From positions 13,314,822-13,378,821 of the forward strand of contig CAIIXF020000008.1 in assembly GCA_903813345.2 (NCBI GenBank): 64,000 bases of DNA, in the 5' to 3' direction. Below the pieces are notes generated by a model that was not told the origin of the DNA, did not search any database, and worked only from the letters and a program-made list of their open reading frames with translations. This document shows positions 23,901 to 62,700 of this stretch, one piece after another; within the stretch, counting starts at the first letter, position 1; every line of letters begins with the position of its first letter. Source of the stretch: Owenia fusiformis. Its lineage: Eukaryota > Annelida > Polychaeta > Sabellida > Oweniidae. The position numbers and the translations under genes were made by a program.

Positions 23901-26900
23901 ATCTTGCTCTGGCAGATGATGTTAAACATCTGGAGAGGAATTCCTGTAAAGAAGATAATGGAATTCACTTAAGTCAGCTTGTACACAGCCAACTGTACAG
24001 TATGGTACTATATTCTTAATGTACCATACAGTACTGTGATTTCATAGTGCGATTTTGGGGTGTATGGACAAAATGTTAAGCCAATGCTGTCAATATACAA
24101 GAAGACCGATTTGCTGAAAATGAACAAAAATGTTGCTTCTTTTCTACCCTGCACGCAGAGTCTAGTTATGAACTACCCTCTGCCTTGTATAGACTATATT
24201 ACAGTTTAGCAGTCCCGCCCCAAAGATTGGTGCCTGTGACAGCCCGGGTAATAAATCATTTCAAATCTACCATGCTGACCCTTTCTCAACCAATCAGCGA
24301 AGTGGAAGGAATGTGTGCTAAATACGTGCTCATTAACTATGCCGGCATGTCAGAGGAAATGACCATATAGAAAAGTCGTCCATATTTCGATGACGAACTC
24401 TGATTGGCTCCGTGAGATCAGAGATTTATTGTAAACTGAAAGAGTGAAGACGAAGCTCTCTTTTAAGAAGTGAAGTCAAACGAATGCAAAGGGTACTTTT
24501 TTCAAAATGATTCATGAGATAAAACTGCCAAATACATGCTAGTCTATGAGGTGGCATTACATTCACGGGTCAGTATGAACAAACTACTAGTATTCATTTT
24601 GTCCATCCCTCTTGAACTTGAGGATATGTTATATTTGCCATATGAAGATCCCTGGGCACTAAGAACCCCTCCCATACCATTTAAATACAAGAAAATATAC
24701 AAGAAACATTTTACAAGAAAAATATACAAGAAAATGTTTTGAAACTGCCTATATACTGTAGATATACAGGGTGGGCCAAAAAAAAACCAATACCCAACTT
24801 CAAATCAGGATAAAAATAGTTACAATCAATATGGTACATTGACTTACATACCATTTTAAAGGTTATACAATTTCAAACAATTTGGTATATAACACTATGT
24901 CATGAAATCAATAGTAAAATTTTATTATACTTATTTGGGAGGCCGGGTTGCTATTTAAGGTCTCCAGATTTAAGGGAGAAAATAGTAAATCTGCGGAATT
25001 ATGTTAATTTTTTATTTATAGAATATCGTTCTTTTGTTAGGTGAATACATGCTTGGATATTGATATTTGCATTATTGTGTGACTATTATTGTTTATGAAT
25101 TTCAGTGTTGTTTAATCACATTTTACACTTTATTTATCTAAACAGTTTTAAGAATTGCTCAATATACCCCCACCCACTCCCCTCTGCATCAACAACCAGA
25201 ACAACGGCAACGCCAAAGCGTAGCGAATCCCATCGAACAGAAATGGCTGGCATTTTTACAAACGAATAGCAAATATCATAAAACAACACACCAGAAAGGC
25301 CACCATTTTCAAAATGGTTGCTCACTAGCCAAGTTGTCATCAGAAGAAATAATATGCTTTTAAGTAGCCACCTCTAAAATTTTTGAAAAATCTCACACGT
25401 ACTTGTAAAATTACACACATAAAAATGGTGGCCATTTTTCAAAATGGCCAACTACTCCCCAAAGTTCTATTAGACAATGTGCCATGCTTAAAGTATTCAC
25501 ATATCAAATATGAACAAAATCGCTCCACTACTTTTCGAGTTATAGTAAAATATGTTAAAATGGCGGCCATTTTTCAAAATGGCCACCGTCTACCAAAAGT
25601 GTCATTAGAAATAGACAGTGTGCCATGCTTATAGTATTCACATACCAAATATGAACAAAATCAAACCACTACTTTTCGAGTTATAGTAAAATACGTTAAA
25701 ATGGCGGCCATTTTTCAAATTTTTTTTCAAAATGGCCGCCTTCTACCAAAAGTGTCATAGGACAGTGTGCAATACTTATAGTATTCACATACCAAATATG
25801 AACAAAATCGCTCCACTACTTTTCGAGTTATAGTAAAATACGTTAAAATGGCGGCCATTTTTCAATTGTTTTTTCAAAATGGCCGCCTTCTACCAAAAGT
25901 GTCATAGGACAGTGTGCAATGCTTATAGTATTCACATACCAAATATGAACAAAATCGCTCCACTACTTTTCGAGTTATAGTAAAATACGTTAAAATGGCG
26001 GCCATTTTTCAACTTTTTTTCAAAATGGCCGCCTTCTACCAAAAGTGTCATAGGACAGTGTGCCATGCTTATAGTTTTTACATACCAAATATAAACAAAA
26101 TCGCTCCACTACTTTTCGAGTTATAGTAAAATACGTTAAAATGGCGGCCATTTTTCAAAATGGCCGCCTTCTACCAAAAGTGTTTTTAGACAGTGTGCAA
26201 TGCTTATAGTATTCACATACCAAATATGAACAAAATCGCTCCACTATTTTTTGAGTTATAGCAAAAATCGTAAAATGACGAGTAAAGGCCGCCATTTTTC
26301 AAGATGGCTGCCATGTGCTTCTTTAATATCTACATTTGTAGCATTATTAATGTCCTTTATAATTTTTTTACATTTAAAACATATTGCTATTACAGTTTTA
26401 CATATTACACCTAAATTACTGTAATATCGGCACTAAAATGGCCGCCATTTTGAAATGAGCGGCCATTTTGAAAATCGGCTTTCGAGCAGAACTTCTACCC
26501 CCATAGGGTATATGTGTACAAAATATGAACAAAATTGGGCCAACGGTATTTGAGTTATTGCCCGGACGGACGGACGGACGGACGGACGGACAGACGTACG
26601 TACGGACGGACGGACGGACGTACGTACGGACGGACGGAGGCGTTCCCTATATCCCTCCGAACTTCGTTCGTTGGGATAATAAGCTTCAAGTGATAGCGCA
26701 ATCTATCAATAGCCTTATTGAGAGATTTCTGTTGCAATTCATTTCAGCACTTTAAGATTCTGTTTCAGCTCATCAATGCTGTTTATTGGATGCTTTTGAT
26801 TGTACCATTTCTTTAAGATGGCTCCATGTATGGTAATCAAACACATTAGCATCGGGGTTGTTGGGTGGCCAAGCATCGAGATCCATCAAATTGACACCTT

Positions 26901-29900
26901 GTTTGCAAAGAAATGCCAATGTCTCCTTTGATCTATGGTACGAGGCAATGTCTTGTTGAAAAATAAAATCCTCGTCACATATACGTTTAATGTATTTTAA
27001 CAGACCCCCTTTGAGTACTTAATGATAATAGACAACACTAAAATTCCTAAACAATAAGTTTAGTCACACAATATGCAAATATACAAGCATGTATTCACCT
27101 AACAAAATGATATTCTATAAATAAAAAATTAACATTATTCCGCAGATTTACTATTTTCTCCCTAAAATCTGAATACCTTAAATACCGACCCGGCCTCCCA
27201 AATAAGCATAATAAAACTTTAATATTGATTTAATGACATATTGTTATATACCAAATTGTTCGGAAATGGATTACCTTTAAAATGATACATAAATCAATGT
27301 AACATATTAAACATAGCTATTTTCATTCTGATTTAAAGTTGGGTATTGGTTTTTTTTGGCCCACCCTGTATATGGACTTACCAGCTTCCCATTGTTTTGG
27401 CTGTACATGCCCCAGGAAGTCATGTTTTACATAGAGCTTGTGGCTGGTCAGACTGTTCATCTTAAATGCATGGTGAGACATCTTTCCCTCACTCTTATCA
27501 CATAGTTTCTGAACAATAAATACGGATAATTGCAAACTTACCTAACAGTGTTATGGGAAACTATAAACTGATAAACATTTCCTGCTTTTAAATAATCACA
27601 CAGAAACTAAATAATCACACAGAAACAATTTTTAAAAGCTAAGCATTGAAAAGAGGTTTAATGCATACTGCATTTGAAGTTCTAACAAGTTCATAAAATA
27701 TCACAAATTCAAATTCAACTAGAACAGCAACTCTGCGGAGTAGCAAACCCCACCAAACAAAATCTTTTAAAGTCATCAAGTCTTTCTTGAGAGGTCCTTG
27801 GAAAGAATGACTTATCCATCTAATAAACACAAATTCATTTAAGAGTGGGAAATGTGGGCAATAGTATTTTACATTATATTTGCCCACTTTATTCCATGGT
27901 GATTCAACTTTTTCCCACCTTTAACATACCTGAGTATACGGAAGAAACTGTTCATGTGCCTGGGTCACTGTCAACTGTTCAACACCACGTTCCAACAGCT
28001 CTTGGCTGAGTAAACCAGGACCTTGAATATACAAAACATCAAACTACAATCCCAAAGAACAAAGTGTACCACAAAACAATTTTAAACTCAAAATAAATAA
28101 GTGTTGCAGAATGACTTTAAATCGGCAATACGATTAAATACTAGCACCACTCTTTTTGCTAATCATTTTGGAAAAATTGCGGAGAAGCTTAGATGGGTAG
28201 GTAAACATTATCTAAATTTTTACAAAGGTCTTTAATCTATATTTATATTTACCTGCATTGCACTCTAGAAATGGCACTGACGCTTCAAGGTGAGGCTCTA
28301 AACAATCAACTATTTCTTCTGTAACAGTAAAATTAATCAGTACTGTACATGCACATGCAGAGTTGATTCCATTGTTGAACCACTCGCTTACCAAATAAAT
28401 GTACATTGTTAACATTGAAAAAACATTCTGCGATTCATGTAGGTTTTCAAGATGTGGTCCAATTTTCATCTTTTTACTTAAATCATAATTCCTTGATTTC
28501 CCCTAATTTTTCTCACCATTTCAAAAAAATTATTCATTTTGAGAAAATTCGTTATTTTTCTGATAAAATGTGTTTTCTTCGGGGTCAACCCAGTTGTCCG
28601 AAACCCAGTTGTCCGAAACCCAGTTGTCCGAAACCCAGTTGTCCGAAACCCAGTTTTCCGAAACCCAGTTCTCCGAAACCCAGTTCTCCGAAAATTAAAA
28701 AATTAAATTTCTTAGTATCTTGTCGCAACCTCGCGAATCAGGACAGCATACATTGGTAACACGTTGACATCGGTTAGCCCGGTCAATAATGGGTCCGAAA
28801 GTTCACGATCATATATATTCTTACTAGATTCTCGGCACATAGACTTATATGGACATTCTACAAATTTTGAACCGCATTGTCCAGCACGAATCGCACTCCT
28901 TCTTGGTGAAAATTCAAGACTGCCGCCAACATTTTAGACAATTATCACAGTCGAAAAGAATATTCTGGCGAAAGGAATATCTATCTCATTAGAATAACGT
29001 ATGGACGTCCGTAACAATTATATAATATTCATTTGATAATTTTTTCCATTCCCTTTTCTCAATAAAATATGGTTAATTATGTTTTCCAATATCAATTGAT
29101 AATATTTCTACCCTGAAAAATATCTAAAAAGAAGATTTTGGTTGTTCAGTACCACCCATTGTTAAGATTTCGTCCAAATTCTCGATAAATCAATAAAATA
29201 TGCTCATTTCGTATAACTTATATAATATATATGTGGCATATATACATATCAGATGTCTATCCTTTTTTCATCATAATATAAGAGGTTTGTATGTTTTAGT
29301 AGAAACGTATTCCTTTCCAAACATTTAGATTTAAGAATTTCTCCCATTGGTGATATTGTTCAAAATCAAAACTGTGTTTTTGCGATATATTGAACTGTTG
29401 AAGTAAGCGTGTAATAGTTTGTAGTAGAGCCAAGATTTGATCTGTATCATGTACGTACCCTGCATAAAAAAATTCGTTTTTAGTGTGCCATAGATGTCAA
29501 CCATTAACTATTGCAGAATCAAAAAAGGTTTTGTGAAAAATTAGGATAATGTTTAAAAATTATACACCGGACAATAAATAACTACTCAATGCAGACAGGG
29601 AGTTTTAATTGCCCAAAAACTGAGTATCAAAATGCATTTGTATCTCTTTAGTATCTTGCATGACTCGTTCATATGAATTCTTTATTTCTACCTCGTTCCC
29701 AATACATTCTGAGACAGTTCAACCTTTGCCCCACGTCCTGTTCGTCGTTAGTACATTGTCACTCGATATAATTGCCACGCGGTCCTAACTTCGACCGTTA
29801 ATTTGAATTTTTGACCTACCGGATATTTGAAAATCAAGGATTACGAGTCTCATACTGCACCGTTTTTCTTCAAACTTGTTCCATTCAAAGCATGACAAAA

Positions 29901-32900
29901 ATCTCTTTCTGATGGTACGTTATTATATTATCTTAAACAGAGTTCCTACTTCCAGCGTAATTTTGGTCCCCAGCTGTAAGAACAGCTGGGGAGTGGGGAC
30001 CAAAACGCTGCTAGAACGAGAGACTCTTTACAATAAAGTAATGCACTGACAAAAGTGCAATTTTGTTTTGCTTTTAATAATGGAAGAAGAAAAGTGCAGT
30101 ATCAGACTCGCAATCCTTGATTTTCAAGCATCTGGTAGGTCAAAAATTCCAATTAACGGTCGAAGACCGCGTGATTGCAGAAAGTGATGACCACGTGGAA
30201 ATTTTGAAACTACCCTTTCGAGTAGGCAAGTAGACCCCAGTCACCCCAAACGGTTCTAAGTACTTCCAATCCGTCCATACAGTTTAAGCCCGTTCTCGAG
30301 AGCGTAGTGAGAACTAGTTTGGTGTGATAATAGGGTCAGATACCACTGGCGGATTAGGGGGGGGGGGGGGGGGGGCGGGCTGGGGCCCTTGGGTGGGCCC
30401 AGAAAAAGAAATTGGGCCCAAAAAAAATTGTGGGCCAAAAAAAGGCCCCAAAAAGTGGGCCTCTTTGATCATTACTGGGCCTTTTAAGGCCTTATTTTTT
30501 AATTTCAGGCCAAATTTTGAAGGAAATAGGGCCTCAAAATTTGGGCCCACTTTTGGGTTTTAGGGGCCCAAATTTTTTTTTCTCTGACCTGAAACTTGGG
30601 CCCCCCCCGCCCTTATTGGTTCCCAGATCCGCCCCTGGATACTGAAAGTGTAAGCATGGACGACCTCCCACCGTCCAATGAATACAGTGGGTTCAGAATC
30701 AGAACGCGTTTCAGACGGCGTTCTGAAACAGCTCACTATAGCTTATTCCTTAAATTCTGGCCTGAATGCTTTGTACGTTGAGAGACGGGACGGGACACGA
30801 CCAGTGTGACAGCGCTGTCACGCTCGCCGTAGAATTTCTGCGCTCTCATACTTTTGCAGTCACATTTGCAGTCACAAGTGGCGTTTACATATTAACATAC
30901 ATAGGGGTCTACAATTTTTAAACCAATTTTCTTTATGCCCCATGGGGCTTTTTGAGAGGGAACAATATTTTTCCAATGGGTGATGGGCGTTCATAAAAGG
31001 GAAAATAGCTTTCCCAAGCCAGTGGGCATTTATTTAGTAAAGTTGACGTGTACATCTTTTGAAACCAAAAATTATTCTTCATTTAGGTACTCTGTTCGAG
31101 AAATAGAGATTAAATTCAAAAAGATGAAGTGAGTACATGGCGAAAATGAAACTTCTTGCGAATGGGAGAACATCCAATTTGATACGAGGACAGCCTGTCT
31201 TCGTTTCCAGTTAATCCCAAGTGATTACGTTTAGAATGTTTTGTTCTTTTACATTTTACGATTTGATAATCGAGACAGAGACTAAGAAATTAAATGCGAC
31301 GAAACATTTTGACAACGTAATATGTGTACTGTTTATTCTTAAAGTTTTATGCGTTAACTTATTTTATCGCTTTCAAAATGTTTAATTTTATTTTGCCTAT
31401 ATAAAATATATTGAATAAGATAAGATCAACTGTTCCGTAATATATATTGTGTTTTGATGACCTTTTTTAGAATCACAATGTAAAATAAATCCCCCGTTCC
31501 TGTCATTCTGGTAACGCCGTGGTGTAATGGATGCAATTCAAAGTGAGAGAGAGATCTATACATCAGAATGCGTCCATGCCATTAATTTTGCCAAATACAT
31601 GACATGAAACTGGCTTGAAGTGCGTCCCCCTTTATCTGGTAAATTATGACTAAATTTTTCGGACAACTGGGTTTCGGAGAACTGGGTTTCGGAAAACTGG
31701 GTTTCGGAGAACTGGGTTTCGGAAAACTGGGTTTCGGACAACTGGGTTTCGGACAACTGGGTTTCGGACAACTGGGGTGCACCCGTTTTCTTCACTTTCC
31801 CGTTTCCCTGACAGTGGCAACCCTGTTGTAATAGATACCATATTCTCTCTAATGGGTGCACAGTTCCAATGAGCACATATGCGAATTTTATGTTGACAGT
31901 ATAGTCTCAATAAACATGAAGTGCATAATGTTTGATTATTTAAACAACAAATGTACAGGGTGGTCAAAAAAATGGAAACCCTAGATTTTCCTTATATCTT
32001 TGTCACTTTAAGAAATTACTCCCTGATATTTCACACATGTGTACATCATTCAATTTCCTAGCACCCTACCATATTTCATGACGATCAGACTGTTAGTCAC
32101 AATTTTACAGCACTTTGAATAAGATGCTTTAGATTTGGCCATTATCGCGCTGTAGGCAAAACAGCACAGTTGTCAATGACTCGAATGCATTCCTCATCAG
32201 GTATGGCCTGAATGACACAAATGATCTAACTTTTGAGGTTTGCAATTGTTCTGAGGTCATTCTCATATACTTTTAGACGATGAGTACAGGTTTCCCCATA
32301 ACGCAATAGTGGCCACTGGGCATGTTCTTTACTGTAACATTGTGACTATCAATCTGATGGTCATGAAATAAAGTAGGCTGGTAGCAAATTGAATGATGTA
32401 CAAAAGTGTAAAATATCAGGGAGTTATCTTTTGAAATGACAAAGATATGCGGAAACTGGTATTAGGGTTTCCATTTTTTTTGACCACCCTGTATTACATA
32501 GCTAGCGAAGCATTTGTATGGAAGTCAATGTGAAAGTTAGAGGGCTGTCTACCGATATTGACCGATTACCCCGATATGGCCCGCTTGTAAACCTCGTTTT
32601 GATATTAGATTCTTTAATAACCATGACAATATCATGACGTCATGTTTTATTTCAATCAAATTCTACTTGCACACAGATGTGTGACTTCATTGATCAATAC
32701 AAAGTAGCCATGGGAATAAAGGTATGTAATACATCAGTTACTTTACTGTGACATGAAATATGCCTGCGTTCTTGCCCAAATATAGAGCCTCGCTCCCAAG
32801 GTCATCCAATATTGGGAGAACTCTTTATTTCACATTAAATAGTGACATAACCTTTATGTATAATGCAGAGAATATGATATATGCATTTGTACTATGAAAG

Positions 32901-37351: not shown

Positions 37352-40300
37352 ATGGCGGATCTTCCATCTGGAGTTGACGTTGAGCGGCTAAAGAAATTAG
37401 AAAATCGTCTCGCTGGAGCTTCCTCTCCTGAAGGTGAAAATAATCTCCATATCGATGAAGGTGGAGATAATAACAAAATAGAAACACAGAGTGCTGATGA
37501 TAGCTTTGAAATTCGCACTAAAAATGAAGAGGAGTCAAATGGCCACAAAGATGAAGCCATGGAAACTGGTGAGGAAAACAATGTCGCAGAGGATAGCAGT
37601 GTTCCAGTTCCAGATAATGACAATGTAACAGCAGAGAGCAATGTTACAGAGAAGAAAAATGAAACAAAAGATACTGATTCAACATCTGTGGCTAGTGAAA
37701 CACCAGCACCTTCTGAAACAAGTCAACAATCTGAACAAGCAGACCCTTTGAAGGTTAAGATAAAGGTTGAGCCTCCTGAAGAGAGCAATGAAAGTGAAGA
37801 CAGTAGATTCAGCAAACAACCAAAAGATTTTGAGATTTCTACAACAGAAAATGAGGAAAGTGAATCCTCTATGACAGCAAGTCCTACCACAAAATCAATG
37901 CTCAAGAAAACATATCCAAGTGAGTTAACATGGAGAAAATTATTGAGACTTAAGCCTCAGTCACATTTGCTCTATGGTAGACATACGGTGGCTGTAACTT
38001 TGCAAAATTGATATAGAATATCTACATCATACTGCTTATCACTATATTTTATGCTGCATATTTTTCAATATTTTGCGCAGCTATGGCCATCGTGTGTTTG
38101 TTATAGATCAAATGTGACTGAGGCATTAGTTCTTATTTGAAAAACTAGTCTAGCTACAAGCCCCTGACCCCGTCTCAAAGCTTGACCATACAGGTATGAA
38201 AACTTCTCACACTGGGTAGGTGTGTACTCAGGGATCACAAAGGCTTGTGGTTATAAAACTGTCATAAAACTTGTTGATTTACCTTCAGGTTTAAAATTAA
38301 GTAGTCTAGATGGACAGTATAATATCTTTTGTATTTTGAATATGAAAACTTCTTTTGCCATCTATGAAAGTAACTTAGATGTACTGGATGTGTTGTTGTT
38401 CATATCTTTTTCAATTAGCTCTAACTAGATTTTGAGTTTAAAATACTCACAAGAAAAGTATCGTGAACTACTGTAGATTGGGTTAATTTGGCGCTACTTA
38501 ATTTGGCGATTTTGCCATTTTTGGCATATTGGCGGCTATTTAATTTGGCGGATATGCAAAAGATGTTAAACCTACGCGGTCTTTGCGAATTACCATGTAA
38601 ATGGGGATGTTTGACTATGTTCATTTTTTCTTTTGAGGACCACTGGCGCTATTCACCAGGTTTGTACATTTTTGTGAGACCATCCTTTACATTTTGCACC
38701 TCAATCGATGCTGCTACTATACCATGCTTTTCCTTTCTAGTTTTCCCTGAGTATTAATGAGTGACTGACCAGTTCTGAGCCAATTTATGAGAGACATTTT
38801 TTCATCTTTTTTGAAAAAATAAACCGGAAGTGACCTTTAATACACTGGACGAAATAACCTAGATAATACCCGGGGATTTCATTCTAAATTTTTGCGAAGA
38901 TTTATATTGGCGAATTTTTCAATTTCGCCAAATTCGCCAAATTAAAGCGGGCGCCAAATTAACCCAATCTACAGTATCAGACTCCCTGATCTACTTTATT
39001 AGTGCATCCATGTATTACTAGTGTAGCATTTTTCCTTAAAATGTCATAATGTATTTGACTTTACTTTTCCAGAAAAATACAATCGCCAGAAAGAGATGGG
39101 AATCACATCTGACATGCTTGTTCCATTTGAAAAAGGTATGTAAATTTAAAACAACATTAAGAGTTTTTGTTGTGTAATTGTTGCTTAATTTGCAATACTT
39201 AAGCATTCACTGGAAACCTTTATTAAAAGCCTTACTATCTGCATACTTTCATGTCATCTTATCATTACAGTCACCATTTTTGTCACTACCACAACTGGTG
39301 ACATTGTATTATTTCAAGAAAAATTATGTCACCACACCACAAGTGGTGGCATATTGTTATAGTCTTAAATTTTTTGTGATGTTGTTTGGTGGTGCGCATT
39401 CGGGGTTTAAAATTTGTAACAAATGGGAAGTGGTGACATTTTGCATGTTAATGCCTTTTTTCTCAAGTTATTACCTCAACAGATCATTTTTACCAAGCTA
39501 TTGTTTTAATTATTATTTCAGGTTGGAGAAGAGAAGTAGTATTTCGTAATCCTGTAACAACAGATGATGGACATGCAAAAACAGTATGTGATATTTACTA
39601 TCACCCACCTGCTCGTCTTAAAGGTAGAAAATTGCGCTCAATGGTGCAAATAGGCGAGTTTTGTGAGACCCATGACGTAGAAGGTCTAACAGTTAAAAAC
39701 TTTAGTTTCCAGCGGGGTCCTATATTTGAGCCTCCTTTGGAGGAAATTCGTACAGCAGGCAAGAGTAAAGGGGGGATGCCCGCCAAAAACACCAAACCAG
39801 GAAAAACTCCAAAAAGTGCAAAGAAGTTCAAAATCAAAATCTGCACCCCTGGGCCTTCCCCAGCCAAGATAGCAGAACTAGACACAACAGAAGTGTTGAC
39901 CAAGGATTCAGAGCCAAGCAATCCATCTTCACTGATATCTGATGTTCTTGGCCAGTGGGAAGATGAACTAAAAGCTAAACCTACACCAAAAAAGAGGATT
40001 GGACCAAAATCAATGACACAAGGGGGTGGTCCAAAGCCTAAGAAGTTCCGGTCCCAGGCCCAGATTGATAGAAAAGACACCACGTAAGATTGCCTGTTTA
40101 TATAATATATCCAGATTTTTTTTTGATGAAAATTTAGTCCATCAATGTTATGTGTCCAATTTTTGAAGCTAAGTAGCCTTCGAGGTCCCCTTCTTTCATA
40201 CGCTTTCATTATTATTATGTTAAGCTGTACTCAGTCTATATCTCATATTTTACACTTCAAAAAAAGTGGCATTTAAAAATGCCATAACGTCCGATAAGGG

Positions 40301-43300
40301 TTGCATAATAGAGAATTCTTTCACGCCACCATTGGGAAATAGGCTTCAGGTTTGGACATGCTTGTGATTGGAATTGTGATCGTGATCGATTTTTTACTTT
40401 GTACTCATGTTAGAGGGTATTGAGTTTGAGAGCTGATTAACTTTTGGCAGGCCATTTTGTTTTCTGTTAGAAGTTTGTTTACATGTTAAAGAATTCTACA
40501 CTTTGTTAACTTTTGGGTGTCTACTTGATGGTGTGATTTCCACTGCATTATATACTTTGTGGATCAGTACATGTACGAGGATTGATCCAAAAGTTCTCCA
40601 CAGTTTGCTCTAAAAATCTAACAGCACATTGGTCAACCATTGTATAACAAGCCATAACAACTCACCCAGTATTTCAAGTTAACTTTGCCTCATAGGTCGA
40701 TTAATAATAAGTGTATATTCAATTTATATTTAGGTCCAGTACTCCAAAGCGTCCCCGACTAGAACCATGTACAATGACATGCCTTGGCCAACAGCACATT
40801 GGTCAACCCTCGTATAACAAGCCATAACAACTCACCCAGTATTTCAAGTTAACTTTGCCTCTTAGGTTGATTAATAATAAGTGTATATTAATTTATATTT
40901 AGGTCCAGTACTCCAAAGCGTCCCCGACTAGAACCATGTACAATGACATGCCTTGGCCAACCGCACATTGGTCAACCCTCGTATAACAAGCCATAACAAC
41001 TCACCCAGTATTTCAAGTTAACTTTGCCTCATAGGTTGATTAATAATAAGTGTATATTCACAGTGTTCGCGCTGGCCATTAAAATTTCTGAGTCCCAGGG
41101 ACGCAACCCATTTGAAAAATTTGAGTCCCCATCTAATTTTTTTGCGTCCCTCTTATTTCTTCACAAAGTTCAAGAAAATATTGTGAAAGTGAAAATAAAG
41201 TGGGCGATAAGTGCTTACACTATAATGGGATAAAAATGACATATATTGTAATTTGATGCATCCTCCCGATAAATATCTATCACTGGGTCCTTTTTACACA
41301 ATTCTTAAGTAATGTTATACCAAAATAGTCCGAAATGAATAAAGGAAATGCTCAAATTAAGAGTTTTGTTTTCACATTTTACAAACCTGCGATCTTGAAG
41401 GTCATGTCAAGGTCGTGAACTTTTGCTTCTTTTTATTAACATTTCTCCTTATTCTTAGATGAAAAACCTCGATCTATCATTAAACATTTATCTTGATGTA
41501 TAACATTAGATCATTATGTAATGGTTTCTAGTGGAAATGATAAAGATAATCGTGAAAAACAATCGTTTCAATTTGTGGGGAACCACAGGGGATTTCTGCA
41601 ATATTGTATGTTTTGATCTTCCATTTCGATTGCGGCATTTTCCGGAATATATCGGAACCAATCAAAATCCATGTCTCATACTGGAAACCCTGTTAATCTT
41701 CGGTAGTCATGATAGCCAATCAGATTTGTCGATATAAATATACCTGGATCATTGCTCGTATATCAAGGTAGTGAGTTTGAAAATCTTGATGAAAATCATG
41801 TTTCACCGCTACTGTGCTGCAGTAAAAGTTATCTTGAAGCAGTTTATAATTTTTGCGTCCTAGGGACGTAAGTTGATTTTGATTTTTACGTCCAACCTTC
41901 TGAAATTTCCGTAAAAATGGAAAAAAACGGCGTCAACGCGAACACTGATTCAATTCATATTTAGGTCCAGTACTCCAAAGCGTCCCCGACTAGAACCATG
42001 TACAATGACATGCCTTGGCCAACCGCACATTGGTCAACCCTCGTATAACAAGCCATAACAACTCACCCAGTATTTCAAGTTAACTTTGCCTCATAGGTTG
42101 ATTAATAATAAGTGTATATTAATTTATATTTAGGTCCAGTACTCCAAAGCGTCCCCGACTAGAACCATGTACAATGACATGCCTTGGCCAACCGCACATT
42201 GGTCAACCCTCGTATAACAAGCCATAACAACTCACCCAGTATTTTAAGTTAACTTTGCCTCTTAGGTTGATTAATAATAAGTGTATATTCAATTTATATT
42301 TAGGTCCAGTACTCCAAAGCGTCCCCGACTAGAACCATGTACAATGACATGCCTTGGCCAACAGCACATTGGTCAACCCTCGTATAACAAGCCATAACAA
42401 CTCACCCAGTATTTCAAGTTAACTTTGCCTCTTAGGTTGATTAATAATAAGTGTATATTCAATTTATATTTAGGTCCAGTACTCCAAAGCGTCCCCGACT
42501 AGAACCATGTACAATGACATGCCTTGGCCAACAGCACATTGGTCAACCCTCGTATAACAAGCCATAACAACTCACCCAGTATTTCAAGTTAACTTTGCCT
42601 CATAGGTCGATTAATAATAAGTGTATATTCAATTTATATTTAGGTCAAGTACTCAAAAGCGTCCCCGACTAGAACCATGTACAATGACATGCCTTGGCCA
42701 ACAGCACATTGGTCAACCCTCGTATAACAAGCCATAACAACTCACCCAGTATTTCAAGTTAACTTTGCCTCATAGGTCGATTAATAATAAGTGTATATTA
42801 ATTTATATTTAGGTCCAGTACTCCAAAGCATCCCCGACTAGAACCATGTACAATGACATGCCTTGGCCAACAGCACATTGGTCAACCCTCGTATAACAAG
42901 CCATAACAACTCGCCCAGTATTTCAAGTTAACTTTGCCTCTTAGGTTGATTAGTAATAAGTGTATATTCAATTTATATTTAGGTCCAGTACTCCAAAGCG
43001 TCCCCGACTAGAACCATGTACAATGACATGCCTTGGCCAACAGCACATTGGTCAACCCTCGTATAACAAGCCATAACAACTCACCCAGTATTTCAAGTTA
43101 ACTTTGCCTCATAGGTCGATTAATAATAAGTGTATATTAATTTATATTTAGGTCCAGTACTCCAAAGCATCCCCGACTAGAACCATGTACAATGACATGC
43201 CTTGGCCAACAGCACATTGGTCAACCCTCGTATAACAAGCCATAACAACTCGCCCAGTATTTCAAGTTAACTTTGCCTCTTAGGTTGATTAGTAATAAGT

Positions 43301-46300
43301 GTATATTCAATTTATATTTAGGTCCAGTACTCCAAAGCGTCCCCGACTAGAACCATGTACAATGACATGCCTTGGCCAACAGCACATTGGTCAACCCTTG
43401 TATAACAAGCCATAACAACTCACCCAGTATTTCAAGTTAACTTTGCTTCTAAGGTTGATTAATAATAAGTGTATATTAATTTATATTTAGGTCCAGTACT
43501 CCAAAGCATCCCCGACTAGAACCATGTACAATGACATGCCTTGGCCAACAGCACATTGGTCAACCCTCGTATAACAAGCCATAACAACTCACCCAGTATT
43601 TCAAGTTAACTTTGCCTCATAGGTTGATTAATAATAAGTGTATATTCAATATATATTTAGGTCCAGTACTCCAAAGCGTCCCCGACTAGAACCATGTACA
43701 ATGACATGCCCTGGTCAAGAGGGGAAGATGCCTAACCTCCAGTGTGGCATATGTATGTGTCTGTATCACACCAAGTGCGCTAACTTCAATGATGTTGTCA
43801 AAGACAGTGTTCTTTTTGTTTGTAGCGTAAGTATTCAATTTTTATTATATCACCACATATGGTGACATATTATTATGGTCTCCAACTTTTTTTGTGATGG
43901 TGTTCAGAGTTCGGCATCTGTAACAAATGGCAGGTGGTGACATTTTTCATGTTAGTGCCTTTGATACCTTCATACTAAGCACTTATAAAGGTTAAATTGT
44001 ACTTGATTTCATATTTTTGCAACCCGGGTATGGCAAAAGACTTGCTCATTTGGAAATGATCAGTAAAGTACTTTAACACATACAGTAGATCTATAACTGA
44101 TTGACTAGTCATCTTATCCATCTGTTATATATTCATTTTCTAGTTGTGGTTTGGCATTTGTATACAAAAAAACAGAATAACGGTATACTGACCTTTAGTG
44201 AATGAATGAAGAAAATATATTTTTATTTAAGACTTTTGCCATGGTATTTATTCATGAATAGGAGGATAGCCATTTGTTAGTACCAAACTTTAACATTTTT
44301 CAGAATTGCTTAACTGCGAGTACAACAGGCGGCAAGGAACGTTTAGTGGAGAAACACTACCCCTCTCAGACAATACCTCCAAACACTGCAAAGCCTGCAA
44401 TGCGTCCCCCACCACCTCTCCAGTTAGCCCCTAACCAGCAAGCCCCCAATAAGCCCCCTATACCGCAGACTGTACGGATGATGAGCCCAGCTTCCATTGG
44501 TGCTATGAAGCTGATCCAAGGACCAGGAACATCGGCATATTCAATTGTCAAAGACCCAATTGTTATGAATGTGAATCCAGTAAAAGTAGCATCTACTGCT
44601 TCAGTTGTTATGCAATCCCCTTTGAACAATTTAAGACCACCAGTTGTTGCAACTAATTCGCAGGTAACGACCACATTGAATCCCACTCAGGGGCCTTTTG
44701 TTGTGCATACCAACCAATCTACTCCAACCCCACAACGTATTGTACAAGTTGGCCCTGGTGGAATTATGACAGAAATATCCAATCCACCTCTACCACAATC
44801 TCAACAGCTGACTCTAAACGCCATGAATAACGCACCCAGGTTAACCGCAGTGCCAGTCTCTAGTAATATAAATCCAATGGTGGTTAACCCAATAGTAACT
44901 CTCCCCGCAGGTAACCTCAATTCTGTCAATTATGCCCCTCTAGTACTCCCGTCTGCATCCAGTGTCAACTCAAATCAAGGCACCCAAATACTTGGTCGCC
45001 CCCCTGTTACTAAACTAGCTGTCCCCCAGATACAAACCAATAATCAGCCACCCCCAGTTCATGTGACGAGCAATTCAGCATTCAATGTCCAGATCTCCCC
45101 ATCTACGTCGACAACATCTAGTAGTAAAGTAAAGGAGGATCCTAATCAGACTTTGGTGAGTGGTCAGTTGTTGACCCTACCTCCCAATGTTATCTCTAGA
45201 ATAAACCTATCAATGCCTCTCTCCCTACTTGTTGGCAAGACGTCTATTCTGGTGCCACCAGAATGTTTCATAAAGTTAAATGATACTGTGAAGGTGTTCC
45301 TTCCTGCGGATACACTTCCCAAAAAAGATGCATCTGAGGATAATCTGCCTATTGTGGACACAGCAAAAACAACTCCCGGATTTGTATCATTATTGAATAA
45401 ACCACTGGCTGCAGTTACCGCTAAGGCACCCGATGGGAAGATGTTACCCTCGACTTCACCTATGACGTCACCCAATCAGAATGCAGCCACACCAATGGAT
45501 ACAGATGAGCCATCGTCAACTAAATCTGATTCAAATCTAAATGCAACAATTCCCTCCATCTCAACCTCCTCAATGCCACAGATCAAATTGATAACAAGAA
45601 AATGTAAAGACATTAACCCTACACTTTGCTATGTGAAAAAACTGAACCAGGGGTTTGAATGCTTGCTTGAAATATTTTCGCACCTTGGATTGAAGGGGTT
45701 AATGGCTGCTAGTCAAGTTTGCAGGGCATGGAGAAAAACTGCACAACATACACGCTTGGTAAGTACATGTACATTGCTAAAACTGATAATAGATAAGGCC
45801 ATTCAAAATTAAGCTTTGAGCATGCATTCACTATACCATTTTTCATCACTATTGCAATGGTTTACTACAATAATATTTATACAAGTTAACATGAGCGACT
45901 TTGTATTGATAATTCCCAGACCTTCAACACTTCAATAAAAAGGGCCTTCAGTTTCATTTTCATGTACATGTTTTATGTACATTTAATTTTTTGTTATGAA
46001 GTGGCTTAGAATTTATTCCTCAGATGCATTAGACTGAGACTTGCCCAGAAAGCAAGGGGTCATGGTTTCAATCCCCACTAGGGTGGACTGACTTTTTCAC
46101 ATCAGCAGGATTTAATTCTGTGTTTTCATTAACCAGTGTATTATAACAGTTAAAATGATATTTCAATTTTTTATTTCAGTGGCGTGAAGTAAGACTTCAT
46201 AAAGTGAAAATTTCAAATTGGGAAAGGGCTGCAGAATTTTTCTCTGATATGATGGTCCAGAGTTTGGTAAGTACAGTATAACATGTCATGTTTGCATTTA

Positions 46301-49300
46301 AAGGTTTTTGCAAAAGCAAGCTTATGGATTTTGAAGAAATGTGAACACATTCTCAATAAATATTTATAGTTGCTTTGACCACATAGCTAATTGTATTCCA
46401 GTTATTTATAAATTCGATTAAAATGAATTTAGTGATGATTGAGTCCATTCAAGGTTTTTTCCAAAAGTTTTGATATCATAACAAATCAGTGCTTAACTTT
46501 CAAATATTTGAGCAATTTTGCATGAAACATGTCATATTCTATGAAAAGTGTTCAGATTATTTAGACAGGTTAATTTTTCAAATATGACTTCAGATTAGGA
46601 GGTGTTCACATTTCAAGATTTTTTTAACATGGGAGTCAATGGGAGGAAAAAATAGATAGGTGTTTTGATATACAGGTTTCACTTGTTTGTTGTAATGTTA
46701 ACAGTTCAGAAACGTCTTAACAAAGGACACAATTCTCAATTGAAAATGTAAAAAAAATTCTGAAATCTTATAATTTTCACTAAAAGGTTGTGAAATTGTG
46801 AAAAGCACTTTACTATTTGAATTTTTGAGTTTTGATAATCATTTAAGAAAATATTCTTTGTCAAACATTTATATTGTATATTACAGGATATGACGGGGGC
46901 TGCACAAGCAAGGACAAATGAATTCTGGGAGAATTTCAAAAATGCTGCTGAATACCTGTATACGTTAAAGCGAATACAGTTGGGGAAATGTCAGGTGTCA
47001 ATTGTACATGAAGTTGGAGAAAACATGAAACAGCTGAGATCCTTGAGGACTTTATTAAAGATCAGCACTTCTGAGTAAGTACATGGAATCACCCACTCAA
47101 TCATCCATCTGTCCGTCCATACGCTATTTTGTTCACTGGGGAATCTGACAACATTTAAATATGTAGGCAAGACTTGGAGTGTGTTACAAAACAGGGCAAC
47201 GATTTTTGAGAAACTTGATAAAACCTTGATATATAATAAGTATCAGGATCCCTTTCATAACTATCAAGTCATATTTGCTGCTTAATTTTAATTATCATGA
47301 TTTATTTATTATATTTTAAGGAATTACACACCTTCATTGGACCTCAGCAAGTTTGCGGAGTCACGGAAACTGGAAGAGCTCTTCATTAAAGGAGATAACC
47401 CTTATGCCTTGACATCATTTTCATCAGACTCAATTTTATTGAAAAATGGTTTTCAAAATCTGCAGACCTTGGTAAGAGATTGTAACATTAAGCATTTGTA
47501 TTTAAATTGTACTATCTAAGTAAAGAAGTTATGGAAGCTTTGTTTTATTTCTACACAAAGGGATTTACATTTCATTTTGGGAACTTTCATTCTGGGTCAA
47601 GTAACCATTTTACTCTTACATTTATAGAAGGTATAGTTAATAAAAGATCAAAAATCTATTTTGAAACATAACAGATTTAATTTAATTATAAAATAGAATA
47701 CAGCATAAGCCTCAAATGTTTTTTGTTTGTAATCCGATTTGGAGATGAATACAGTAAAATCATATATTCTTCAAAACTTATGGAGAAAAATGTTGAAAGC
47801 TGCAATTTGGAGTATAGGACAGAACACCAGATATCATACTTTTTGTGTCCTCTCCTGTACTGATAATATTCAATAAGGTTGTTGTGACAATCATTAGGTT
47901 TCTTTGAATCATTTTTAAAACTAATTGCAAAACCACAATATAGTGACAATGGGAAAAATCAATGAGCTTGGTAAACAATACACATAGTACACATAGAAAA
48001 ACATTTGGATTAATTACTCCAACCTAAGTTCACTACATATTTGCCATTTCCTACATCATCAAAATAAATTCTCTATCCTTAAAGTTTTTTCTTTATGATT
48101 TCCAGTCACTGTTGAATCTAAAAGGCAATGGAGATGAGCTTGCATTTCTCGCCTCCCTGAAGAATGTCTCTAAGCTTGAACTTGGGAATTGTACAGACTG
48201 GTCCAGTGAGGTAAGAGACTATGTTGTGTCATATCATGCAGACAAAAATAAAGCAGTACTGTTGAAACCTACTATTCCAGACTCAATTCTAACCAAAAGT
48301 TGTTGTTAGTCGGTATTGGCTGATAAAAACAGTGTTTGGCATTCGGCATCTGTAACAAATGGCAGGTGGTGACATGTTGCATGTCAATGCCTTGTTTATA
48401 CTTGTAGTATCATGTTTTAGATTTATGATTCCATCTGTAATACTCGTTTTAGATGTATCAACACATCAGTGCAATGACAGGGATTACCATGTTGCGATTA
48501 GAACAAGGTGGAGAGTCTGCAGCTCAAGGTCTTCCACTGGTCTTTAAAAACCTCAAGAAGTAAGTATAACATGAATTTTTATCCAATATGTATATCGTTA
48601 TGTCAACATTAGAAGTTGTGACATCTTGTTATGTCACCACTAGAAGTAGTGACATCTTGTTATAGTCTCCAACTTTTTGTGGACTGTGTTTGGTGGTTGG
48701 TGTTTGAAATATGGCAGTTGGTGTTCAGCATGTGAAACAAATGGCAGGTGGTGACATATTGCATGTTGATGTCTTGTGTATACATGTACTTGTTTTCTGC
48801 TATTTTCAACCTGTATTTAGAAATAAAAAGTGCTAAGCTAAATAAAAAGTGTGTGTCCAAATGAAAAAATGCTCCATGTGGTAGATATTTGATGCTTTTT
48901 CCTCGAATGGGTGTGAAATTCTCATTTTCTTGTATAATACCAAAATTGGTCAATAGCATGCCTTTTCATGTTGATCATCTATTAATACAAATAAATTTCC
49001 TTTGGGTTTCAAAGGACCACTTTCCCCACAGTTCAAGGATGATTATCATGAGGCTAGGAAGCAACTATTAACATGTTATATTATACTTTATATGTGGTTG
49101 CTCTCTTAGCAAGATTCAATAATTAAATACTGAAGATTGATTAATTTGTGTCTGTGTTTTTCAGACTTGACGTGTTACAGCTGATTCTGTTTGATGTGTC
49201 TCATAATGAGCTGCTGCCAAAGATGACGTATTTGAATTCCCTGCAACTCTGTCCTCAAGGAGGTGAAAAGGTATGATTGTGCTATATATGTATGACTGAC

Positions 49301-50067
49301 TCTGTTATAGGTTTATGATTGTGCCATAGGTGAGTCTTAATACCCTGTATTGTACTAGACAAATCAGAATTATTCAGACAGTTCTGATTTTGCTAAAGGG
49401 GATTATGATGAGCCTTATACATATATGTACATGTATGTAGGATAGTGAGAGTGCTACCGACAAGTATTATTGTGCTGCAGACTTGTTTGATTGTGCCAGA
49501 GGCAAATATGATTGTGCTAGAAACATGATTGTGCTAAAAACAGATATAATTGTAGAAGTGACAAGTATGATAGCGCTTTAGGCAGATTTGATAAAATTAA
49601 ATTCGATAACGATTCAAAAGTTGTTTGCAAATCTATGTATTTTTTAGCTCATATGGTGAGCTTTTGCAATCATTTTCTTTTACTTTCCTTATGCTGTAAT
49701 CAACTGATTAATTCAACTGTATTAATTGCAGTCGGGACAAGTTAACAAGGACACATATGCCACACTCTGTAAGCTGTCACACCTCAAGGATCTGGAGTGG
49801 AACTTCCTAGTAGACCCTGAGGGGGAACTCAACACACAGTACAACTACATAATACCCTATCAGGGGGAGGTACTCTCAAAGAAAGACATGTTGGAAATAA
49901 GGGATGACAGTGATAGTGACTATGAGGAGGATACCCCCCGTAGTGATTATATTAATATTAATACACTAGCCAAGAAACTTAAAAAGGATTTGAAATCAGT
50001 GAATGTTACACTGAATAAAGTTTCGAAAACTTTTCAGTCATATCTGACTGTGTCGTTGCATAAATGA
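37352..50067 (+). CDS. MBD-PHD-F-box-LRR protein (putative SCF adaptor that reads methylated DNA)
   Basis: Twelve coding exons, all in frame: 37352-37919, 39073-39135, 39522-40083, 43661-43826, 44304-45758, 46180-46266, 46887-47074, 47321-47471, 48106-48210, 48453-48559, 49165-49270, 49732-50067; about 1297 residues. Order: acidic disordered N-terminus; methyl-CpG-binding domain (about 211-275; GWRREVVFRN, DIYYHPP, KLRSMVQI), keeping the Asp, Tyr and Arg that MeCP2 uses for DNA contact; Lys/Pro-rich linker; PHD finger C-x3-C ... CGIC ... YHTKC ... C-x2-C, its last Cys pair split by the 43826/44304 intron; a long Pro/Thr/Asn-rich linker; F-box (LLEIFSHLGLKGLMAASQVCRAWR ends near 45735); then leucine-rich-like segments and an acidic tail. 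KDM2/FBXL19 proteins pair CXXC, PHD and F-box-LRR; here MBD stands in for CXXC. No named orthologue recognised; function is inferred. Confidence 0.88.
37950..38129. mobile_element. MITE, copy B of the GCCTCAGTCACATTT family
   Basis: TAAGCCTCAGTCACATTTG at left and CAAATGTGACTGAGGCATTA at right; internal GACATACGGTGGC resembles copy A at 9489 in inverse. It lies 30 bp after the first coding donor of the MBD-PHD-F-box gene. Confidence 0.75.
38471..38974. mobile_element. TA-flanked MITE, AATTTGGCG ends
   Basis: Perfect 24-bp terminal inverted repeats, CTGTAGATTGGGTTAATTTGG... and complement, flanked by TA. Inside, repeated AATTTGGCG motifs. A decayed relative may lie near 23490-23665. Confidence 0.88.
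39320..39455 (+). repeat. Dispersed GTGGTGACAT-family repeat
   Basis: ATGTCACCACACCACAAGTGG, ATTGTTATAGTCT, GTTTGGTGGT, TTTGTAACAAATGG and AGTGGTGACATTTTGCATG: inverse of the copy at 4160. It ends about 65 bp before the MBD exon. Confidence 0.75.
40620..43660 (+). repeat. Tandem array of intron-end plus PHD-exon-start units (12 decoy acceptors)
   Basis: Unit of 169 or 170 bp: about 118 bp of intron end (AACAGCACATTGGTCAACC ... TTTATATTTAG) followed by the first roughly 50 bp of the exon (GTCCAGTACTCCAAAGCGTC ... ACATGCC). Decoy exon starts: 40734, 40903, 41965, 42134, 42304, 42474, 42644, 42813, 42983, 43152, 43322, 43491; the true, full exon starts at 43661. Copies differ at few positions. 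42813-43151 and 43152-43490 share the variants CATCCCCGAC and GATTAGTAATAAG, marking a 339-bp dimer. Each decoy, read in the gene's frame, stops after a short tail (LGQQHIGQPSYNKP in the commonest version). Confidence 0.95.
41061..41947. mobile_element. hAT5-like non-autonomous element inside the exon array
   Basis: 887 bp with ends CAGTGTTCGCG and CGCGAACACTG, flanked by ATTCA at 41056-41060 and 41948-41952. Removing 892 bp restores a unit of exactly 170 bp, which confirms the borders. No transposase seen. Confidence 0.88.
43850..43965 (+). repeat. Dispersed GTGGTGACAT-family repeat
   Basis: ATCACCACATATGGTGACAT, TTATGGTCTCCAAC, GGCATCTGTAACAAATGGCAGG, TGGTGACATTTTTCATG. It starts about 24 bp after the PHD exon donor. 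Confidence 0.75.
46550..46690 (+). repeat. Dispersed GTGTTCAGATTA-type repeat
   Basis: AAGTGTTCAGATTA, GGTGTTCACATTTCAAGAT, AACATGGGAGTCAATGGGAGG and GATATACAGGTTTCA occur in the same order as at 51145-51500. Confidence 0.65.
48310..48395 (+). repeat. Dispersed GTGGTGACAT-family repeat, partial
   Basis: GTGTTTGGCATTCGGCATCTG, TAACAAATGGCAGGTGGTGAC and TGCATGTCAATGCCTTG: one half of the family consensus. Confidence 0.65.
48590..48780 (+). repeat. Dispersed GTGGTGACAT-family repeat
   Basis: Two GTTATGTCAACATTAGAAG / GTCACCACTAGAAGTAGTGAC blocks, then TATAGTCTCCAACTTTTTGTGG, GTTTGGTGGTTGG, AACAAATGGCAGGTGGTGAC. The palindrome CACCACTAGAAGTAGTG looks terminal. Confidence 0.75.
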
Positions 50068-59700: not shown

Positions 59701-62700
59701 TTTTAGAGTAGAACACAATTAATAATGGTGGCAAACAAAATACAACAACGATCCCATAATTCCCAAGTGCTTACCTTGTGTGGTCCTCTGCTCACGGTAT
59801 AGCCATTGTTGATGTCCTCCCCAGTCGTCAGAAGATTCAGTAAAACGCTGTTAGCCATTTCTACAAATAATATATCAGCACATGTTTCAATATAATTTAG
59901 TGAAACGATTCTCTGATTGCGACTATATTGATGAAAAACAATGAATATTTAAAATAAATCAGGGAAATGTTTATCGAAATGAACAACCTATGATTTTAGT
60001 TAAAGGCATGATAAGCAAGTAATAAGGGTGTTAATATTAGGAACAAGGCATTAACATCCAATATGCACAACCTGCCATTTGTTACAACACTGACAGCCGA
60101 ACACCTACTGCTGAATGCCAAACACCAACCAAAAAAACATCCACAAAAAGTTGGAGATTATGAAAATCTGTCACCACTTCTGGTGCTAATATAAAAATGT
60201 GTCACCATTTCTGGTGGTGACACATTTTGCCACTAGATTAATTCTGATAGCCATCACACCATATACCACATTGTTAATTCTACTTCCTAGTCAGGTTCCT
60301 GAACTTGCTGTCAGTGTACAATAGTACAATAACCATTATTCTATGTATAAAGCTGCACAATTAAGTTTAATTATAGTGCGTAATTTAAAACACCAAGGTG
60401 ATGGTTATATGTAATGTCAAGATGTTTTTACAAGCACAGTTTTTATAGACCATTTATTTGATATATTTAAACATTTTACACTGTTAAGTTTAATATGACC
60501 CAGGAGATAAAAGCATGATACATGCTGATGTTTTTTTCAAGTACGAAATCATAAATATTTCCTGAATTAAATAGAAATGCAAAAATACAATCAACGTTTT
60601 ATGGCAGAAACATAATAAAACGAAATGTCACCAGCTGCAAATGGTTACCAATGCAAATGTGTGATAGATGTCAATTGCCAAACATCAAATTTTGAATGCC
60701 AAATGCTCAATATCAAACTCTGAATGCCAAGTGCTCAATATCAAACTCTGAATGCCAATTGCTCAATATCAACCTCTGAATGCCAAGTGCTCAATATCAA
60801 ACTCTGAATGCCAAGTGCTCAATATCAAACTCTGAATGCCAAGTGCTCAATATCAAACTCTGAATGCCAAATGCTCAATATTAAACTCTGAATGCCAAGT
60901 GCTCAATATCAAACTCTGAATGCCAAGTACTCAATATCAAACTCTGAATGCCAAATGCTCAATATCAAACTCTGAATGCCAAGTGCTCAATATCAAAATC
61001 TGAATGCCAAGTGCTCAATATCAAACTCTGAATGCCAATTGCTCAACATCAAACTCTGAATGCCAATTGCTCAACACCAAACTCTGAATGCCAATTGCTC
61101 AACATCAAACTCTGAATGCCAATTGCTCAACATCAAACTCTGAATGCCAATTACCCAACACCAAACTACCAAATACCATACTGAATAGCAAATGCCAGTC
61201 ACAAAAAACTGTGGCTATAGCAATATTCAATGTCACCACCTGCCATTTGTTACAGATACCGAATGCTAAACACAAACCACCAAATACCAACAACCAAACA
61301 CCAACCGCCACCACTTGGGGTGGTGACATTATAACAACAATATGATTCTCAGACAAGTCTGTGAACTCTTAGGTAAAGAACTATAATCATAAAAATTGTC
61401 AAATCTGACATTCTCTGGGAATATCAGATCAGTCAGAGAGACCTAGTTATGCAGTAATTACTGACATCCTTATGTTTCTCATCAATAACCAGATATTATT
61501 GAAATATCAAAAAATGATCAATATGATAAACAAAAAACAATCTTTATTAGTGCATGCGGTTAGTGTAACATATTCACACTGTTTAACATCCTGTTTGCAC
61601 AGTCCTACCATTGCAATGAAAACATTGAGTTTTATGAGTATTTTATGGTCTCAGTCAATCATAACTATCTAGTTCAAGGGAACACTGTTAATTAAAAAGA
61701 ATACAATAATGCTGATATTGTAAATCGTGAGAAAGCTCAAAAATCAAATCAGGTCTCCCTAGATTCATAAAGATGTTTTAATGCACTCTACTGCTGACAA
61801 TAAAGCATTTTAAGACAATAAATGTTAGATCAATTCATCTGAAAAGTGTCCATTGTGAAGGGTGCTAAGGGACTTCTACTGAAGAGACCACTATCTCAAC
61901 AATTTGAAAAGTAAAGATTCTCATTTCGTTGTTCATTGCTTGTTCCTAGTACATTTCGTAATTCCTTGTAAATTTCTGTTTACAGACTAGTGTTCTTCAG
62001 GGATAATTTTCCCGGATCCCCTTTATAAGTAGCTTTCCTTGCCCTGATTGAGTGTTGTTGTAACCAGGTTACCATAGAAACCAATAATAAAGAGGACAAA
62101 TACTCCCTCTGGAGGGTCATAGCCCACTCACATCTGTACAGTAAAAAATGTATGCAATTTTATACTCACTTGACTGTTCCTTCTGAGCTGGTGTATGCCA
62201 TCTGGGTTTTTTAGTAGGAGGCCCCGTCTCCAGTTGATTAGTCGATAATGGTGTCTTAGGGATCAGTTCTTTCCTATTGGGCAACATTTCAGAAGCCATT
62301 CGTTTGTTCTGAAGTCGTCGCATATTCGTCAGGAACGAGCGTGACTTTGACGTTGTTTCCGGGTCTGGTGGTAAAGGAGAGAACACCGACTCTGTACGGC
62401 CAAGAATTCTGAAATTTAACATTTCTTGAACATTTACTTTGGATAAATAGTACAGTACCTCAGGTTCATTCAGTTACATTCAGTTAAAGGGTGTTAACAT
62501 GAGTCTGTCTAACTTAGACCTTGCTAGTGGGCAAATAAGTTTTCACTTTTCCACCTTCAATAGTCTTAGTAATATATTTTAAAAAAAACTTGTAAAATAA
62601 CTGACCACTTTTGCAGTTGTGTTTTTGTTTCTTTTTATGAGAATATATATGATTGTACAAAAAACCTTATAACTGTGATTGAAATGTTTTAAAGGAATAT

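Follow-up and report, generated by a model that had tools for sequence, protein, structure and literature searches.

Mirage minisatellites are tandem arrays of minisatellite type in which each unit crosses an exon–intron edge and the copies carry splice signals. In the amphioxus globin gene BflGb6, units of 150–160 bp comprise the 3′ end of an intron and the 5′ part of the following exon and are present in six and three copies in two haplotypes, and a donor-side copy was described in the globin gene BflGb9, Adh3 being the earlier case (PMC3087553). Splicing was reported to be undisturbed by these arrays and their length to be unstable; new introns were suggested to originate from them (PMC3087553). 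Further amphioxus mirages are those of TnC and PGBD5 (PMC3902484). Here, we describe an array that resembles them in the annelid Owenia fusiformis. It lies within a 64,000-nucleotide stretch (contig CAIIXF020000008.1, positions 13,314,822 to 13,378,821; hereafter the window, whose numbering is used throughout), in an intron of a gene for a protein with an MBD, a PHD-like segment, and an F-box. Twelve decoy acceptors, each with the start of the PHD-like exon, precede the exon itself.

In the literature found, mirages are reported from amphioxus only; subscription papers lay largely outside that search, so we claim no priority for annelids. One earthworm minisatellite paper describes repeats inside an intron.

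Architecture of the array

The original prediction, made from the window alone, had described a tandem array of decoy 3′ splice sites carrying the start of an exon, with the real acceptor last. This description was confirmed, with twelve decoys and a unit of 169/170 bp. The acceptor scan found the decoy motif TTTAG/GTC (slash, splice point) on the forward strand at 40734, 40903, 41965, 42134, 42304, 42474, 42644, 42813, 42983, 43152, 43322, and 43491, without change in any of the twelve, and the real acceptor at 43661 was the last of 13 such sites. The spacing between acceptors was 169 or 170 bp, except for 1062 bp across an insert. In the unit alignment (170 columns), each unit was made up of the last 114 nt of the intron followed by the first 56 nt of the exon. 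The first copy, unit 1, starts at 40620 (40620–40789, decoy acceptor 40734) and is followed by unit 2 (40790–40958, decoy acceptor 40903), the insert-split unit 3 (40959–42020, decoy acceptor 41965), units 4 to 12 (42021–43546, decoy acceptors 42134 to 43491), and unit 13 (43547–43716), which comprises the real intron end and runs into the real exon. Tandem Repeats Finder (TRF) recovered the array in two pieces.

On average, each of the 13 units was 96.1–98.1% identical to the rest, with the lowest means in unit 12 (96.1%), unit 13 (96.6%), unit 7 (96.9%), and unit 1 (97.0%), two of which are interior. Private variants, found in no other unit, were present in six of the 13 units (1, 3, 5, 7, 12, and 13). 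Self-comparison revealed an exact 339-bp periodicity on the forward strand at 42656–43398, where a 404-bp segment (42656–43059) recurred exactly at an offset of 339 bp (42995–43398), and units 8 and 9 were identical to units 10 and 11, respectively. This periodicity appears to be the mark of a recent two-unit duplication. A dimer pattern had been predicted at 42813–43490 and attributed to unequal exchange; an exact dimer does exist and the signs of growth by tandem exchange are present, although the exact stretch is slightly displaced from the predicted one, in which 334 of 339 positions were identical.

A 201-base array query against the 498-Mb assembly, in a search that scores the best candidates only and skips very common words, gave 14 reported matches, all of which fell at this locus, and a dispersed satellite was therefore rejected. 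Searches with this query and with the exon at 44304–45758 reported no haplotig or paralogue without the array; this exon, the next one of the host gene, had a single genome match. For 11 of the 12 host-gene exons, blastn found no same-strand copy.

Repeat comparison showed that unit 3 is interrupted at 41061–41947 by an 887-bp transposon-like insert with 14-nt terminal inverted repeats, which were 93% alike, and ATTCA on either side. After removal of the insert and one ATTCA, the joint agreed with the other units except at one base. The original prediction makes no mention of this insert. The forward strand of the insert holds two AATAAA hexamers, at 41194 and 41338, downstream of decoys 1 and 2. 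No further copy of the insert was found within the window.

Host gene and encoded protein

The host gene (37352–50067, forward strand) has 12 coding exons and encodes a protein of 1297 aa. Exons 2–12 joined in frame to give a spliced model of 1107 aa that was 100% identical to part of P0001, a deposited O. fusiformis protein of 1297 aa, and exon 1 was read against P0001. The MBD exon (39522–40083) ends at the donor CAC/GTAAGA and opens the array-holding intron of 3577 bp (40084–43660). The real PHD-like exon (43661–43826) is followed by the donor AGC/GTAAGT. The deposited protein follows the last acceptor, at 43661, with a plain exon joint; intron gain by tandem duplication was accordingly rejected for this gene. 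The database cluster of the full-length protein has one member.

Earlier labels for the protein were MBD, PHD, F-box, and leucine-rich repeats (LRRs). Pfam supported the MBD and the F-box and found no LRRs in the full protein. The PHD label was weaker than had been claimed, the top Pfam match (PHD_ash2p_like, E = 0.021) being under the cut-off, and a PHD-like Cys/His pattern was common to the host protein and its bivalve homologues. The latter shared 29% identity with it in the alignment, and a weaker MBD/F-box relative was found in Drosophila rhopaloa. A study of annelid methylomes names MBD1/2/3 and MBD4 among the readers (PMC11292947).

Splice signals and reading frames of the decoys

Simple matrices were used to score splice sites. 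The decoy acceptors scored 1.35–1.63 and the real site 0.11; local acceptor strength fails to explain the choice of the last site. The best GT inside the unit scored −3.2 (one unit scanned) compared with 0.96 to 6.32 for 10 of the 11 host-gene donors, and a cassette exon formed from a decoy was rejected because the scanned unit contains no good GT. Measured to the donor at 43826, the exon would be 336 nt long from the nearest decoy and 505 to 3093 nt from the others, against 166 nt from the real acceptor, and the last acceptor is the only one at this distance from a consensus donor. Within 40700–43661, the four highest-scoring GTs were all located in the insert (best, 41867), and their use would mean an exon of approximately 1 kb. 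Recursive splicing at AG/GT was rejected on account of the score of the GTCCAG donor (only −4.05). RNA structure masking the decoys was likewise rejected, given that one unit proved less stable than most of its shuffles (z = 1.52; 188 of 200 shuffles at least as stable); for the last unit together with the exon, the folding z was −0.96.

The 12 decoys varied at 15 alignment columns, comprising 3 of the 56 exon columns and 12 of the 114 intron columns (Fisher p = 0.39). Single substitutions that break a unit numbered 12 of 510 (2.4%), and the probability that 15–25 random substitutions break no unit was 0.55–0.70. Selection is not needed to account for intact decoys, since under neutrality all twelve units would stay unbroken more than half of the time. 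Neither the Fisher test nor the neutral expectation supported purifying selection on the exon parts of the decoys, and the decoys showed no sign of being kept by selection.

When joined to the exon end at 40083, each of the 12 decoys encodes 31 residues (TSSTPKRPRLEPCTMTCLGQ...YNKP) followed by a stop at the same place. The original prediction had the frame kept for about 15 residues and then closed after a short tail; the open frame and the subsequent stop stood, and the extent is now an in-frame read of 31 residues, of which the first 17 match the real exon except for an R-to-H change in three decoys and a P-to-Q change in one. A search of 3876 candidates of suitable length matched no protein terminated in this manner at E ≤ 0.001. 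Eight more exons of the host gene follow the decoy stops. RNA with a stop upstream of later exons is a target of nonsense-mediated decay, and decoy RNAs are expected to decay because their stops precede eight later exons. The predicted outcome of decoy use is, for the most part, RNA with a premature stop and not a stable protein restricted to the MBD. Outside the insert, the array-holding intron contains no AATAAA or ATTAAA.

Similar arrays at other genes of Owenia

We surveyed 50 PHD matches out of 83 listed, each with 1.5 kb on either side. Thirty were given as loci and 20 were picked by a short open frame before the sequence was seen, which does not amount to a complete rule; overlaps reduce the 50 to 41 non-overlapping stretches. 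Loci L021, L035, and L036, with transposon-like open frames of over 1000 aa, were kept in the counts.

Edge-spanning arrays were shown to recur in five genes of the Owenia genome, the MBD–PHD–F-box gene and four others. Three of these others carry acceptor-side arrays, in which intron end and exon start are repeated and the whole exon comes last. The array of L043 (86 bp × 9.7) precedes a DPF/KAT6-like PHD exon (best PDB match DPF3, then KAT6, with a 28-residue peptide) and has eight intact acceptors, all identical over the 15 nt leading up to the AG; the last is the real one, and one decoy has lost its AG. L052 (56 bp × 11.1, BPTF-like PHD exon) has ten decoys, in eight of which the exon start is preceded by AAG, a weaker site than the real TAG, and L031 (45 bp × 2.9, UHRF1-like PHD exon; picked up by TRF only) has two decoys. 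The fourth array, L053:2131–3114, is located on the donor side: 68-bp units follow an SNF2-type exon, the whole exon comes first, and at least 11 identical CAT/GTAAGT donors were found, of which the first is the real one; this array reaches the end of the stretch examined. The original prediction had remarked that a unit of about 170 bp is close to nucleosome-repeat length; such a length is not required, the units of these genes being 45, 56, 68, and 86 bp.

Arrays with a period of at least 40 touched 4 of the 50 PHD matches; among 200 control segments taken from these loci, 12 were touched. L058, one of the four matches, was not shown to hold exon sequence. Same-strand partial copies (blastn, 1.5 kb) accompanied 11 PHD matches, namely the arrays of L043 and L052, single copies at L016, L022, L023, L028, and L053, the copy at L025, and the unclassified L041, L058, and L059. 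Opposite-strand partial copies were found within 1.5 kb, likewise by blastn, at 0 of 50 PHD matches and 13 of 200 controls. By eye, L016, L022, L028, and the PHD exon of L053 held a single or decayed copy of an exon edge or piece; L023 and L028 belong to one gene, a near copy of L022, and L023 was counted with this single-copy group without itself being viewed. At 30 kinase matches, which lie mostly in long exons, no array coincided with the match. The plain reading of the survey is that tandem repeats form readily in this genome and that those extending over one exon edge persist, as an intact exon remains.

L022 and L023 (contigs C124 and C2) are 93–98% alike and would represent an unpurged second haplotype or a paralogue.

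Origin and consequences of the array

We consider it probable that the array is a mirage minisatellite that arose by duplication across an exon edge and is tolerated via exon definition, with no function needed. A 169/170-bp piece comprising the intron end, the acceptor, and the first 56 nt of the exon would have been duplicated in tandem, and growth by unequal exchange would have led to the twelve partial copies and the intact exon that we observed; the insert would have landed in unit 3. Exon definition, the recognition of whole exons, is established for animals. Because the decoys have an acceptor and no partner donor, exon definition would select the complete exon, and the array would be tolerated. 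Occasional decoy use would presumably result in a premature stop and RNA decay, and the process seen at this locus would be a recurrent one in the Owenia genome, acting on either side of exons. As in described mirages, the tandem unit spans an exon edge and real-like splice signals are present in all 12 decoys. Bearing on undisturbed splicing are the deposited protein, which uses the last acceptor, and the lack of a match to a decoy-terminated protein; for length instability, the assembly offers one copy of the locus and the recent-looking dimer duplication. With regard to a homogenised interior and divergent edge units, units 8 and 9 recur as units 10 and 11, and identity is low at the edges (units 1 and 13) but also in the interior units 7 and 12.

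Several points weigh against this interpretation. The decoy acceptors slightly outscore the real one, which would favour the decoys if strength or order decided. The deposited gene model, which suggests that the decoys are not used, may be partly ab initio. Human exon-edge repeats were reported to change splicing (PMC2812944), a warning against assumed silence. The survey was small (41 non-overlapping PHD stretches, with a kinase comparison of 0/30), and a background rate is not a secure reading because same-strand partial copies were commoner at PHD matches (11/50) than at controls (21/200); we did not lean on this excess, since PHD exons can resemble each other, the copy at L025 being a neighbouring PHD exon.

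A rival explanation is a splicing rheostat, in which decoys engage splicing factors or the upstream donor without productive splicing, or are used and yield premature-stop RNA, and copy number lowers the full-length message. The AG is kept in every decoy and all twelve outscore the real acceptor; the human exon-edge repeats show that such sequences can alter splicing (PMC2812944), and the decoy 3′ splice site In100 in a caspase-2 intron blocks a donor by non-productive pairing (PMC2082412). In the human gene ABCA7, the length of a variable number tandem repeat (VNTR) raises skipping of exon 19, and blocking decay increases the premature-stop forms (PMC5954066). However, the latter forms were unchanged with VNTR length (PMC5954066), In100 also requires a pyrimidine-rich repressor site (PMC2082412), and the amphioxus arrays were reported not to disturb splicing (PMC3087553). 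With decoys that show no sign of selection, we regard such regulation as unlikely. Similarly speculative is a genome-wide population of acceptor and donor mirages at conserved exons (MBD–PHD–F-box, UHRF1-, BPTF-, DPF/KAT6-, and SNF2-type) that varies in copy number between individuals and lowers productive splicing or supplies new introns; we would not expect it to hold in this full form.

The original prediction went further and proposed a stable MBD-only protein made by decoy use, in a ratio tuned by copy number. The shared open frame of 31 residues and the common stop position in all twelve decoys would allow such a product, but the protein search returned none, the cluster of the full-length protein has one member, decay of such RNA is expected, the intron outside the insert lacks the two poly(A) hexamers, and no selection on the decoys is apparent. 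Together with the similar arrays at four other genes and the reportedly undisturbed splicing in amphioxus (PMC3087553), these data make the proposal very doubtful. RNA spliced to decoy 1 or 2 could instead use a poly(A) signal within the insert and, as an alternative last exon, escape decay. The two forward-strand AATAAA hexamers are suitably placed for this; such hexamers are common in AT-rich DNA and the protein search gave no such isoform, so that we give this outcome hardly any credence. An assembly artefact, in which a faulty consensus inflated the copies, might be suspected from the 96–98% identity among units and the two identical dimers. Against this, private variants occur in 6 of 13 units, an insert lies in unit 3, and the published Owenia genome was built with PacBio reads with an N50 of 25.75–30.75 kb, far longer than the array (PMC9977687). 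The published assembly measures 505.8 Mb (PMC9977687) and the present one 498 Mb, and the window may come from another version; even so, we deem an artefact extremely improbable.

Other features of the window

A long terminal repeat (LTR)-type retroelement occupies 10671–21846, with identical 761-bp terminal repeats (10671–11431 and 21086–21846) and long minus-strand frames between them. An inverted repeat pair inside it (13633–14325 and 17865–17177, 81%) suggests a nested insertion, and a 234-bp sequence at 15966–16434 is present in two perfect tandem copies. Other tandem arrays are one of 147 bp × 5.9 (25435–26277) and one of 28 bp × 16.7 (60684–61150). Two 15-bp arrays 3 kb apart (28587–28693 and 31657–31776) have largely complementary units, AACCCAGTTGTCCGA and TTTCGGACAACTGGG, and are perhaps the ends of one element. 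An exon of a copper type II ascorbate-dependent monooxygenase was found at 2731–3003 (Pfam PF01082, E = 3.9e-12), and a 20-bp × 30.5 array (1806–2415) is located upstream of it.

Comparison with known systems

Like the Owenia array, the human exon-edge repeats in duplicated genes are of minisatellite type; their unit averages 30 bp, and novel introns and alternative splicing were reported there, whereas none was seen in the Owenia gene (PMC2812944). The alternative exon of Caenorhabditis elegans U2AF65 likewise presents many acceptor-like sites in a row, but its repeats sit in the alternative exon, and no exon-start copy is mentioned in the accessible part of the source (PMC2082412). The VNTR in intron 18 of human ABCA7 is a minisatellite that includes a splice site and is associated with premature-stop isoforms, which are predicted for Owenia; it differs in its 25-bp donor-side unit, in having no exon-start array, and in that the effect of length on skipping was measured (PMC5954066). 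In100 of caspase-2 is also an intronic acceptor-like site unused as an acceptor, but is a single element with a repressor site and no repeat (PMC2082412). In intron gain by tandem genomic duplication, an internal duplication similarly copies splice signals; in those cases a new intron arises from the copied AGGT (PMC3443670), whereas none was seen in the Owenia gene.

Splice-site choice depends on sequence, order, and exon context, and arrays such as those of L043 (acceptors) and L053 (donors) hold sequence nearly constant, providing natural material for showing how far exon context alone decides. With the Owenia arrays, mirages are described beyond lancelets, in an annelid, so that the idea of a lancelet peculiarity becomes testable; the arrays also offer material for tracing intron gain.

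The closest counterparts are the amphioxus mirages. In both, the unit lies across an intron–exon edge, the decoys carry splice signals, and either edge can be affected; the regular product is still made in amphioxus and may also be in Owenia, to judge by the deposited protein that follows the last acceptor. The two differ in that Owenia is an annelid and not a cephalochordate, that twelve decoys compare with six and three BflGb6 units, that the Owenia array is interrupted by an insert, and that length variation and splicing were examined in amphioxus, whereas the Owenia array is known from sequence. The structure is of a known kind and, as far as searched, new for an annelid, and its recurrence in this annelid is the point of interest.

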